64,000 nucleotides of DNA. It comes from Halopseudomonas salina. GTDB taxonomy: Bacteria > Pseudomonadota > Gammaproteobacteria > Pseudomonadales > Pseudomonadaceae. A model generated the notes under the pieces. It made no database searches. It saw only the letters and a list, made by a program, of their open reading frames with translations, and had not been told where the DNA came from. Location of the stretch: NCBI RefSeq assembly GCF_008641105.1, contig NZ_VTTI01000006.1, forward strand, positions 114,139 to 178,138, in the 5' to 3' direction. This document shows, in pieces, positions 59,528 to 62,791 of this stretch (positions within the stretch are counted from its first letter, which is position 1; each line of letters starts with the position of its first letter). The position numbers and the translations under genes were made by a program.

Positions 59528-59566
59528 ATGTTCATGTCTTTTATCTCCGGCGTTACGCCACCATAG
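59528..59566 (+). CDS. Leader peptide MFMSFISGVTPP upstream of nhaB
   Basis: A 12-codon open frame ending Gly-Val-Thr-Pro-Pro-TAG. It matches two other leader frames in this window (61271 and 62759) in the last five codons and stop, with synonymous changes between copies. No clear Shine-Dalgarno is seen; ATG 59528 or 59534 could be used. The codons GGC GTT ACG CC also form a small hairpin GGCG-TTA-CGCC. A terminator lies 78 bases downstream. Proposed role: ribosome stalling at the Pro-Pro-stop to control nhaB. Existence as a translated peptide is inferred. Confidence 0.7.
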   Translation: MFMSFISGVTPP

Positions 59567-59644
59567 CGTCCCACACCCCGGCCTTTTCGTGGCTTCCTTC
59601 CTGCGCGCGCTTGCGTGCAATAATTTTCGCGTAAAAAAAACAAC

Positions 59645-59697
59645 AAGACGCTCTAACTGAACCGGACAGCCGGATCAGAACGCGTCTTTTTGTGTTT
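59645..59697 (+). terminator. Intrinsic terminator in the nhaB leader (attenuator)
   Basis: AAGACGC (59645-59651) pairs with GCGTCTT (59682-59688). An inner stem CTGA-CCGG/CCGG-TCAG (59657-59678) caps it, and a five-T run (59687-59691) then TGTTT follows. It lies inside the leader, before the likely nhaB start. Its 5' arm GACGCT (59647-59652) is also exactly complementary to AGCGTC (59565-59570), which overlaps the leader-peptide stop, so an alternative antiterminator pairing is possible. Confidence 0.75.
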
Positions 59698-59730
59698 GGG
59701 TTTTACCAGCCCGTAACATTGGATCAAAAA

Positions 59731-61245
59731 TTGAACATTCCAACCACGACTCTCGGCAGTGCGTTTGCGCACAATTTTCTCGGCAATGCGCCTAAGTGGT
59801 ACAAGCAGGCTATCCTTGCATTTCTTGTTCTGAACCCGGTATTCCTCTGGCTGCTCGGCCCGTACGTAACAGGCTGGATTCTGGTCGCGGAATTCATTTT
59901 CACCCTGGCCATGGCGCTCAAGTGCTACCCGCTTCTTCCGGGAGGATTGCTCGCCGTAGAAGCTTTACTGATCGGCATGGCCACCCCCGAGGCGCTCTAC
60001 GCCGAGATGCTACTGAATTTCCCGGTGATCCTGCTGTTGATGTTCATGGTGGCCGGCATCTACTTCATGAAAAGCCTGTTACTGCTGGTTTTTACCCGAA
60101 TACTGCTTGGCGTGCGCTCCAAGTCCTCCTTGAGTTTGCTGTTCTGCCTGACCGCGGCATTGCTCTCAGCCTTTCTCGATGCCTTGACCGTCACCGCCGT
60201 TATTATCAGCGTGGCAGTGGGGTTCTATTCGGTTTACCACAAGGTAGCCTCCGCTCCCCACAAGACCCAAACAGAGAAAGTGGTTCATCCAGATGACGAG
60301 GCCCTTGAGCTGCATCGTGATGATCTGGAGTCATTTAGGGCTTTCTTGCGCAGCTTGCTTATGCATGGCGCAATTGGTACCGCCTTGGGTGGCGTATGCA
60401 CGCTGGTGGGGGAGCCGCAGAACCTGCTGATCGCCAAAACAGCAGGCTGGGATTTTGCAGAATTCTTTATGCGTATGGCGCCGGTAAGTTTGCCTGTCCT
60501 GGCCGCAGGCTCGCTTACCTGCGTGTTGCTGGAAAAAACCGGCTGGTTCGGGTACGGGGCAAAGATTCCCCGTAATGTGCGTCGTGTGCTCGAGGAATTC
60601 GCCGCAGAAGAACAGCGCAAGCGAGGGAAAGCGCAGCAGGCTCAGCTCATTGTTCAGGCGTTTGCGGCTCTGGTACTGATCCTTGGTCTGGCTTTTCATG
60701 TTGCTGAAGTCGGTCTGATCGGTCTGCTGGTGATTATTGTGATGACCAGCTTCAATGGCGTTACCGACGAGCACCAGATTGGCAAGGCGTTCCAGGAAGC
60801 TCTGCCGTTCACTGCGCTGTTGGTGGTGTTTTTCGCCATTGTTGCGGTCATCCATCAGCAACATCTGTTCAGCCCGATCATTGCCATGGTGCTGGCGCTG
60901 CCCCTCGACGAACAGCCCGGCATGTTCTTCCTCGCCAACGGACTGCTGTCCATGATCAGCGACAATGTCTTTGTTGCCACGGTATATATCAGTGAAATCA
61001 AGCAGGCGCTTGATTCAGGGCAGATCGATCGGGAGCACTTCGAACTGCTGGCTGTTGCGATCAATACGGGTACCAACCTGCCAAGCGTAGCTACACCCAA
61101 TGGTCAGGCGGCTTTTTTGTTCCTGCTGACCTCTGCCATCGCGCCACTGGTGCGTTTGTCGTACGGACGGATGGTCGTCATGGCGCTACCCTATACTGTG
61201 GTTCTCGGGGGGGTAGGTTATATCGCGGTAGCAAACTGGCTCTAA
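59731..61245 (+). CDS. nhaB: Na+/H+ antiporter NhaB
   Basis: Inner-membrane antiporter that expels Na+ and Li+ in exchange for protons. About 504 residues, with the NhaB N-terminus (AFAHNFLGNAPKWYK), LDALTVTAVIISVAVGFYSVYH and the NhaB-type ending. About eleven membrane helices. The start is uncertain: TTG 59731 has GGA seven bases upstream and gives the family N-terminus MNIPTTTLGSAFAHNFLG. TTG 59719 and GTG 59692 are alternatives, the last lying inside the terminator. It is preceded by leader-peptide and terminator features, and followed by a second leader frame 25 bases after its stop. Confidence 0.92.
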   Translation: MNIPTTTLGSAFAHNFLGNAPKWYKQAILAFLVLNPVFLWLLGPYVTGWILVAEFIFTLAMALKCYPLLPGGLLAVEALLIGMATPEALYAEMLLNFPVILLLMFMVAGIYFMKSLLLLVFTRILLGVRSKSSLSLLFCLTAALLSAFLDALTVTAVIISVAVGFYSVYHKVASAPHKTQTEKVVHPDDEALELHRDDLESFRAFLRSLLMHGAIGTALGGVCTLVGEPQNLLIAKTAGWDFAEFFMRMAPVSLPVLAAGSLTCVLLEKTGWFGYGAKIPRNVRRVLEEFAAEEQRKRGKAQQAQLIVQAFAALVLILGLAFHVAEVGLIGLLVIIVMTSFNGVTDEHQIGKAFQEALPFTALLVVFFAIVAVIHQQHLFSPIIAMVLALPLDEQPGMFFLANGLLSMISDNVFVATVYISEIKQALDSGQIDREHFELLAVAINTGTNLPSVATPNGQAAFLFLLTSAIAPLVRLSYGRMVVMALPYTVVLGGVGYIAVANWL

Positions 61246-61270
61246 AGCCCGTGTTTAAGGAGTAAGCAAA

Positions 61271-61309
61271 ATGAAATTAGCGAACCTGAATGGCGTTACG
61301 CCACCTTAA
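61271..61309 (+). CDS. Leader peptide MKLANLNGVTPP upstream of cfa
   Basis: A 12-codon frame ending Gly-Val-Thr-Pro-Pro-TAA, with an excellent Shine-Dalgarno AAGGAG eight bases before its ATG (61257-61262). It is the best supported of the three leader frames for actual translation. The GGC GTT ACG CC codons form the same small hairpin. It begins 25 bases after the nhaB stop, so it may be on the nhaB transcript, on a separate one, or both. Conserved peptide end, differing stop codon and synonymous third bases point to selection at the protein level. Confidence 0.8.
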   Translation: MKLANLNGVTPP

Positions 61310-61457: not shown

Positions 61458-61462
61458 TCGTA

Positions 61463-62626
61463 ATGTCCTCGTCACCTATGTATGAAGAAAAACAAAACAC
61501 GGAGCTGAACGAAAGTTCTTTTCATAACACGGTAAAAACAATGTTTGATCGTGCTGATATTCAGATCAACGGCGACCGTCCGTGGGATATACAGCTCAAT
61601 CACCCCGGCGTCCCCGAGCGTGCGCTGTCCAAAGGCAATCTGGGCTTGGGTGAAGCCTATATGGATGGCGACTGGGACTGCCCGCATCTGGACGAGTTTT
61701 TCTGTCATCTACTCGACGCCCGTCTTGATAAGGAAGTGCAGCCACTGCGCCTGGTGATTCACAGTTTGCGTGCCCGCCTGCTTAACCTGCAGACCATGAA
61801 GCGAGCGTGGCAGGTCGGCGAGCAGCATTACGATCTAGGCAATGATTTCTATGCCGCCATGCTCGATGAGCGAATGACCTACACCTGTGGTTACTGGAAA
61901 GATGCAGAGACGTTGGAGCAGGCGCAGACCAACAAGCTCGACCTTATCTGCCGCAAATTGCAGCTTGAGCCCGGAATGCGTGTATTGGATATTGGCTGTG
62001 GCTGGGGGAGCTTCATGAGCTATGCAGCTGAGCATTACGGTGTGGAGTGCGTGGGTGTAACAATTTCCAGTGAGCAGGCCGCCTGGGTGAAGGCTCGCTA
62101 CCCTGACCTGCCACTGGACTTCAGGTTGATGGACTATCGCGATCTGGAAGAGAAATTCGATCGCATAGCTAGCGTAGGCATGTTCGAGCATGTGGGTCGT
62201 AAGAATCATCGTATATTCATGGAAGTAGCCCACCGCTGCCTTGAAGATAACGGCCTGTTTCTCCTGCACACAATTGGCAAGAACACCCGCAAGTCTGCCC
62301 CGGATCCCTGGATCGACAAATACATTTTTCCCAATGGAGACCTGCCCTCCATCGGACAGCTGGGAGATGCTGCAGATGAACTTTTTGTAGTTGAGGATAT
62401 GCACAACTTTGGCGCCGATTACGACCGTACCCTGATGGCATGGCATGAGAATTTCGAAAAAGCCTGGCCGCGATTTTCCAATCAGTTGGGCGAGCGCTTT
62501 CACCGGATGTGGCGGTATTACCTTTTGTCTTGCGCTGGAGCATTCCGGGCGAGAGATATTCAGCTCTGGCAGTGGGTGCTCTCCAAGGAAGGCGTAAGCG
62601 GTGGGTATCAGCGTGTGTCCGAGTGA
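61463..62626 (+). CDS. cfa: Cyclopropane-fatty-acyl-phospholipid synthase
   Basis: Converts cis-unsaturated phospholipid acyl chains to cyclopropane chains using S-adenosylmethionine, protecting membranes against acid, salt and other stress. The 387-residue protein has an N-terminal lipid-interacting region and a methyltransferase domain with YDLGNDFYAAMLDERMTYTCGYW, the SAM loop VLDIGCGWGSFMSYAAEHYG, SVGMFEHVGRKNH and HTIGKNT. ATG 61463 follows CAGGAG with a short spacing. A long leader with a GVTPP peptide lies upstream. Confidence 0.94.
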   Translation: MSSSPMYEEKQNTELNESSFHNTVKTMFDRADIQINGDRPWDIQLNHPGVPERALSKGNLGLGEAYMDGDWDCPHLDEFFCHLLDARLDKEVQPLRLVIHSLRARLLNLQTMKRAWQVGEQHYDLGNDFYAAMLDERMTYTCGYWKDAETLEQAQTNKLDLICRKLQLEPGMRVLDIGCGWGSFMSYAAEHYGVECVGVTISSEQAAWVKARYPDLPLDFRLMDYRDLEEKFDRIASVGMFEHVGRKNHRIFMEVAHRCLEDNGLFLLHTIGKNTRKSAPDPWIDKYIFPNGDLPSIGQLGDAADELFVVEDMHNFGADYDRTLMAWHENFEKAWPRFSNQLGERFHRMWRYYLLSCAGAFRARDIQLWQWVLSKEGVSGGYQRVSE

Positions 62627-62690
62627 GTTCTTGATGGCTTGAACAGAAAGCTAACAGGCTACGTTGTGTGCGAATTGAAAGCATTTGGTT

Positions 62691-62707
62691 GATAGCCTGC
62701 GGCTATC
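62691..62707. other. Perfect hairpin/palindrome after cfa
   Basis: GATAGCC, loop TGC, GGCTATC: a perfect 7-bp stem in the 132-base spacer between cfa and the third leader frame. There is no T-run, so it could be an mRNA 3'-end hairpin or a DNA operator; a partial sigma-70-like TTGATA overlaps its left arm. Confidence 0.4.
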
Positions 62708-62758
62708 TCCTGTGATAGAGTACGCCCCCTCTAAACGGACCCCTTACCGGACAAGCCG

Positions 62759-62791
62759 ATGAACAGTTTTCCCGGCGCTACGCCGCCATAG
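62759..62791 (+). CDS. Leader peptide MNSFPGATPP upstream of sulP
   Basis: A 10-codon frame ending Gly-Ala-Thr-Pro-Pro-TAG. It is the third member of the set, with GTT replaced by GCT (Val to Ala) and CCA by CCG (synonymous). The GGCG-CTA-CGCC hairpin is kept. Only a weak GGAC precedes the ATG. It lies 282 bases upstream of the sulP start. Translation is inferred from conservation with the other two. Confidence 0.65.
   Translation: MNSFPGATPP

Follow-up and report, generated by a model that had tools for sequence, protein, structure and literature searches.

Leader peptides that act at the termination of their own translation are known, and the best described of them, TnaC of the Escherichia coli tna operon, senses a metabolite via a long nascent chain. 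Here we report on three tiny open reading frames (ORFs) that precede nhaB, cfa and sulP (leaders 1, 2 and 3) in a 64,000-nucleotide stretch of Halopseudomonas salina (contig NZ_VTTI01000006.1, positions 114,139 to 178,138 of the forward strand; hereafter the window), and on their counterparts before the sulP operons of relatives. TnaC resembles these leaders in being a short ORF before a transport operon, in having proline as its last codon and in exerting control at termination; the rut site of tnaC adjoins its stop codon (PMC10941005), and many, but not all, of the leaders described here have a C-rich stretch near that place that may be a Rho loading site. TnaC differs in its 24 residues with W12, D16 and I19, its UGA stop codon and RF2, and its response to tryptophan, whereas the leaders described here mostly have 6 to 15 codons, mostly end in UAG (TGA in 2 of the 69 found outside the genus set defined below) and have only Thr/Ser-Pro-Pro as common residues. 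SpeFL is reportedly an ornithine-sensing arrest peptide that stalls at termination and is linked to Rho, but it is said to be longer and to contain an ornithine site.

Two further systems bear comparison. The copper leaders CutF and CruR also have a proline-rich C-terminus before the stop codon and act on the downstream gene via coupling (CutF) or Rho (CruR) (PMC9973294). They are unlike the present leaders in that proteins of the CutF type have a CxxxC motif for copper and, in many cases, a signal sequence; by eye, the CxxxC motif is absent from the leader peptides that we listed. MgtL, the leader of mgtA, is likewise a proline-containing leader before an ion transporter and is subject to Rho-dependent control (PMC11282234), but there the ribosome drops off at an early EPDP motif and not at the stop codon, and no early acidic-proline motif of this kind was seen by eye in the listed peptides. 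A literature search, with most subscription journals outside its reach, found no description of the leaders. Action at termination is a known kind of control, from whose described examples the present leaders depart in the UAG bias, the minimal size, the diproline core and the sulP target: a broad bacterial group keeps the diproline and mostly UAG ahead of a single transporter operon, in ORFs of as few as six codons. If our reading is true, these ORFs would read out the speed of RF1 termination in a minimal form found in nature, C-terminal proline pauses would be shown to be used and not avoided, and the SulP operon would have a layer of control that gene annotation has missed because the ORFs are too short for gene calling.

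The sequence-only reading of the window had placed a tiny ORF before each of nhaB, cfa and sulP, and all three are present at the coordinates given in Table 1, before genes that are backed by protein profiles. Their DNA core, GGCGNTACGCCNCCNTA, occurs in exactly 3 copies in the window; with up to two mismatches allowed there are 4 matches, compared with a shuffle mean of 0.43, and 4 was reached in 0 of 100 shuffles. Startable frames ending in Thr/Ser-Pro-Pro-stop also number four in the window, namely the three leaders and one frame inside nhaB that is read differently from the gene. Leader 1 has a second ATG at 59534, which would give the 10-codon peptide MSFISGVTPP, and 10 codons is the commonest leader length in the genus set (in 21 of 35 rows this is the distance between the stop and the nearest ATG). 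By eye, leader 2 alone has a clear Shine-Dalgarno sequence within the window. The stop codon of leader 2, TAA, shares bases with an ATG (TAATG), from which a frame of roughly 26 codons (61308-61388) runs before cfa; it may be a coupled second leader.

The closest nhaB relatives of the window are those of Pseudomonas saliphila and other Halopseudomonas-like genomes. Counterparts of leader 1 stand before nhaB at six loci (L001, L002, L104, L108, L116 and L121; L and G numbers are our handles for loci and genomes), reading MRCSIGVTPP in P. saliphila (L001) and MPSLTGLTPP in L002, and ORFs before sulP in other genomes include MLQQNGVTPP and MICSSGVTPP. A first peptide-level pattern matched in 22 of the 37 genus genomes, in some by chance, and the DNA upstream of sulP revealed endings that this pattern had missed (RLTPP, RFTPP, QPTPP, LPTPP, QLTPP and AVTPP). 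The genus set comprises 39 sulP loci in these 37 genomes, one of which (in G031) was excluded as it starts at a contig edge, and a leader is found at 32 of the 38 assessable loci, a hand count combined from several listings: 26 leaders lie directly before sulP (one of them before an nhaB remnant) and 6 before the nhaB of an nhaB-sulP pair.

Beyond the genus set, a Thr/Ser-Pro-Pro-stop leader lies upstream of sulP in 41 of 56 loci from other Pseudomonadaceae, 40 with TAG and 1 with TAA; this family set takes 56 of the 68 sulP places outside the genus set, 12 low-identity ones being left out. The order set, with 86 sulP loci drawn from the sulP places of 149 genomes, has a leader in 21 (17 TAG, 2 TAA, 2 TGA), and the class set has one in 7 of 25 loci (6 TAG, 1 TAA), these being 25 of 28 new loci after one genome shared with the order search and the short loci L432 and L445 were left out. 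Both of the latter counts would miss leaders before an nhaB upstream of sulP; nhaB stands directly upstream of sulP in 1 of the 56 family loci and 4 of the 86 order loci. On the antisense strand, the same search found 0 leaders in each of the family, order and class sets, and shuffled sequences gave a mean of 0.24 and a maximum of 1 locus for the family and a mean of 0.2 and a maximum of 2 loci for the order. Leader ORFs are enriched in relatives far above these controls, which supports the sequence-only reading on this point.

Across these leaders the start varies and Thr/Ser-Pro-Pro-stop is kept. The prevailing form in Pseudomonadaceae outside the genus set is W-L/Q-P-T/S/G-P-P-UAG (44 rows), and hexapeptides (MRITPP, MKLSPP, MFGTPP, MSATPP) occur elsewhere; no N-terminal residue is common across groups, and the genus-set and order leaders share only Thr/Ser-Pro-Pro. 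The five-residue ending of the GVTPP type, at first taken for the kept motif, is a local form of this shorter one. The codons within the motif vary freely among synonyms (CCA, CCT, CCG and CCC for Pro; ACG, ACT, ACC and ACA for Thr; AGT for Ser). Among the 69 leaders outside the genus set, with all three stop codons allowed, 63 end in TAG, 4 in TAA and 2 in TGA (the codon table was built from TAA and TAG rows only, and TGA was judged from separate counts), so that the use of stop codons read by RF1, remarked on for the three window copies, generalises to 67 of 69. For comparison, among long open frames TAG is the stop codon in 8 of 59 from the window, 18 of 105 from genus-set loci and 17 of 61 from four Pseudomonas loci, these background counts being of open frames and not of annotated genes.

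The leader DNA also contains a GGCG/CGCC palindrome, which might itself be the functional element, as a protein operator or an RNA hairpin, with the ORF incidental. All three window copies and 21 of 35 genus-set leaders hold it intact, but in the other 14 of 35 it is broken and the peptide end kept, for example by the synonymous changes of ACG to ACC or ACT, or by GTT to CTT, which replaces Val with Leu, and no order leader (0 of 19) retains it whole; these counts are one-sided, the leader rows (108; 96 after duplicate removal) having been collected by peptide, which makes Pro-Pro a given, and the 35 rows include the doubtful L219_6273. The reverse test, over up to 380 nt before sulP at 30 genus-set loci, found 11 palindromes and all 11 in a TPP-stop frame; elsewhere it found 2 in 56 family loci, both unrelated, and 0 in 86 order loci. 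The case that would speak for the DNA element, a palindrome kept while the frame is broken, was looked for and not seen, and we reject the palindrome as operator or hairpin, a role for it being extremely improbable. The TGGC/GCCA stem that the family form could make is preserved in 33 of 42 family leaders and 2 of 19 order leaders. Since 14 of 35 genus-set leaders have lost the GGCG/CGCC palindrome, and it was never seen with the frame broken, the selected part is the peptide end. Recurrence above the controls, varying N-termini and mostly synonymous or conservative changes in the kept part bear out the proposal that selection acts on the peptide end and its stop codon.

Which gene the leaders serve is indicated by nhaB. 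A sulP gene lies within 1 kb downstream at 11 of 80 nhaB loci, and 7 of these 11 have a leader before nhaB (Marinobacter lipolyticus, M. changyiensis, M. orientalis and M. vulgaris are among the pairs with a leader), whereas only 2 of the 69 nhaB loci without sulP have one, and in one of those two (L015) the contig ends at nhaB. Since nhaB has a leader when sulP follows and solitary nhaB essentially does not, the leader belongs to the sulP operon.

Other targets occur. In G018, leader copies precede an FkbM-like gene (identified by eye), an nhaB-sulP pair, a second sulP and cfa, the cfa leader being LNGITPP-TAA (L211). The 8-codon MAIGVTPP at L211:1620-1662 of this genome stands before an operon that resembles the FkbM-family, sulfatase-family and BNR-repeat genes of the window; in the window itself, the 384 bases upstream of the FkbM-family operon (54534 on) contain no leader of this kind. 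A second model, applied to 119 family genomes, yielded one further target, rmlD, in G121, G128 and G140. At these three loci (L421, L422 and L423) a W-L-P/L-T-P-P leader precedes a lone rmlD (dTDP-4-dehydrorhamnose reductase; NCBIfam equivalog in 2 of 3), and all three genomes have EarP. Leaders also persist where the gene has decayed: G002 has one before what remains of nhaB, and G055 has one before a broken sulP (L228, L419). Downstream of the sulP operon lies a universal-stress-protein gene and in many cases also a DksA/TraR-type zinc-finger gene (L219:5884-6276); in G002, a KQTLNEMTPP-TAG frame after the zinc-finger gene is perhaps the remnant of a cfa leader.

The sequence after the stop codon is also distinctive. 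In Pseudomonadaceae, the bases 9-17 nt past the first base of the stop form a stretch rich in C and poor in G, with C and G fractions at +12 to +14 of 0.87 and 0.02 in the family, 0.61 and 0.12 in the genus set and 0.56 and 0.05 in the order; compared with windows of the surrounding 700 nt, the median percentile of C minus G is 0.97, 0.93 and 0.90, respectively. The base directly after the stop is C in 41 of 42 family leaders, and C after the stop is a poor termination context in E. coli. A subset of 22 rows shows a hairpin near the stop, in which both arms have some base changes, a comparison made with no shuffle control.

On balance we think it probable that the leaders form one family of cis-acting ORFs tied to the sulP operon and acting by slow RF1-dependent termination. 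In keeping with this, the leaderless loci of G005 and G013 no longer have the leader stretch and show a promoter-like site near sulP, so that the leader looks like a removable cis module. In E. coli, a C-terminal proline slows termination, and release from proline is slow for both RF1 and RF2, more so when these are unmethylated (PMC7246954); UAG is read only by RF1 (PMC8131318). If the leaders are translated, as we suppose, their Pro-Pro-UAG end would slow RF1-dependent release and hold the ribosome on the stop codon. A ribosome parked there may cover the edge of the C-rich stretch and deny access to Rho, in the manner of tnaC, or it may keep the hairpins that follow open. The pause would be the ON state, in which expression proceeds into sulP (in the window also into nhaB and cfa), and the speed of termination would thus set the amount of transporter. 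For the cfa copies, which have TAA, no C stretch and a Shine-Dalgarno sequence within a hairpin, an action on translation is more likely.

An alternative is translational coupling of the kind described for CutF and cutO, in which the pausing ribosome would open a hairpin over the start of the next gene and transcription termination would have no role. The CutF precedent (PMC9973294), the hairpin at the cfa Shine-Dalgarno sequence and the stable folds from leader to sulP (z -4.49) and from leader to nhaB (z -2.68) are all consistent with coupling, but the sulP start lies some 130-330 nt from the leader, beyond the direct reach of a paused ribosome, and we consider coupling unlikely. Readthrough or frameshifting into sulP was rejected, as any frame that is open from the leader region to sulP differs between loci.

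Several observations weigh against slow RF1-dependent termination before sulP. The leader is missing at 6 of 38 genus-set sulP loci (G003, G005, G007, G013, G017 and G028), at 15 of 56 family loci and at most loci of the order and class sets. The two order leaders that end in TGA indicate that RF1 alone is not strictly required. The C stretch was not found in the Marinobacter nhaB-sulP leaders or in the cfa leaders, so the Rho model cannot cover all members, and stable hairpins start about 20 nt past the stop, an uncommon arrangement for a site of Rho loading. RNAalifold detected no common structure in 42 whole spacers, most leaders have, by eye, a weak Shine-Dalgarno sequence or none, and no ion or pH signal accounts for the leaders before rmlD.

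As to what slow RF1-dependent termination would report, the shortest ORFs have only six codons and the final residues are all that the leaders have in common, so the sensor is likely to be the termination reaction itself and not an exit-tunnel pocket for a metabolite. Candidate inputs would be RF1 supply or methylation and the ionic or pH state. A fuller version of this idea, which we regard as rather doubtful, is that Met-x-x-Thr/Ser-Pro-Pro-UAG mini-ORFs read the speed of RF1 release on a diprolyl peptide, as set by RF1 supply, by PrmC methylation and its S-adenosylmethionine, and by cytoplasmic pH or ions, and pass it on to SulP and NhaB transport, to Cfa, which uses S-adenosylmethionine, and in some Pseudomonas to rmlD. 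It seems less probable that the leaders are ligand-sensing arrest peptides, as SpeFL is said to be, with a small molecule, such as an anion that SulP transports, binding the nascent chain in the exit tunnel and blocking release. TnaC provides a precedent for this too (PMC10941005), and most family leaders have a Trp five residues before the end; however, Trp is absent from the genus-set and order leaders, in which only Thr/Ser-Pro-Pro is common, and hexapeptides would be too short for a tunnel pocket. We regard ligand sensing as quite unlikely.

The diproline also raised the possibility that the pause reports EF-P activity, and rmlD, which serves the synthesis of dTDP-rhamnose, the donor for EarP, would then be a feedback target, in keeping with the presence of EarP in all three genomes with rmlD leaders. 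EarP, the EF-P rhamnosyl-transferase, is nevertheless absent from the leader-bearing G001, G018 and G425; it is present in the leader-bearing G121, G128, G140 and G197 and also in G245, and absent from the leaderless G328. Moreover, EF-P had no effect on release at a C-terminal proline in work cited in PMC7246954, and EF-P and EfpL had reportedly no noticeable metagene effect on termination (PMC11611912). The link to EF-P that the sequence-only reading had suggested is weakened accordingly, and an EF-P sensor is very unlikely.

Table 1. The leader ORFs, their genes and neighbouring elements in the window.
Feature	Position	Strand	Basis
Leader ORF 1, before nhaB: MFMSFISGVTPP-TAG	ATG 59528, TAG 59564-59566	+	sequence
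Leader ORF 2, before cfa: MKLANLNGVTPP-TAA	ATG 61271, TAA 61307-61309	+	sequence
Shine-Dalgarno AAGGAG of leader 2	61257-61262	+	sequence
Leader ORF 3, before sulP: MNSFPGATPP-TAG	ATG 62759, TAG 62789-62791	+	sequence
nhaB, open frame with provisional GTG start at 59692	59692..61245	+	NhaB profile, Pfam
cfa, cyclopropane fatty acyl phospholipid synthase	61463..62626	+	NCBIfam equivalog above cut-off
sulP, cut by the window end	63074..64000	+	SulP-type Sulfate_transp family, Pfam
Promoter-like TGTATGCTAAGGT, extended -10 type, ~30-40 nt before leader 1	59487..59499	+	by eye, unconfirmed
Promoter-like TGTGATAGAGT, before leader 3	62711..62721	+	by eye, unconfirmed
C-rich stretch directly 3' of leader 1	59570..59579	+	sequence; family-wide C enrichment after the stop
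C-rich CCTCCCC, 7 nt past the leader 3 stop	62798..62804	+	sequence; family-wide C enrichment
Terminator-like hairpin and T run before nhaB (AAGACGC...GCGTCTTTTT)	59645..59691	+	fold of 59564-59700, z -2.68
Hairpin taking up the cfa Shine-Dalgarno	61434..61457	+	fold of 61395-61475, z -1.66
Hairpin-rich spacer, leader 3 to sulP	62805..62930	+	fold of 62789-62930, z -4.49

The genes in the window run in the order nhaB, cfa, sulP, each with its own leader copy (Table 1). The GTG with which the nhaB open frame starts lies within the T run of the terminator-like hairpin, and the stem of this hairpin is also found in L121, there lacking the T run. By eye, TGnnCTAGAGT-like sites lie upstream of most genus-set leaders; a scan with the sigma-70 promoter consensus found no promoter, including at the promoter-like sites before leaders 1 and 3. 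Rfam 15 detected only a tRNA over the window, with no leader family match above the gathering score, and lax thresholds on 343 bases around leader 1 and on 12 Pseudomonadaceae loci gave nothing credible. The matches of the first model in Pseudomonas at L143-L153 (E ~0.005) were rejected as leaders, the stretch that they share having no in-frame start. This stretch, GGCGTTACGCCGCCATAA, is identical in many Pseudomonas genomes and lies upstream of a gene on the other strand that, from its protein letters, we take to be erpA.

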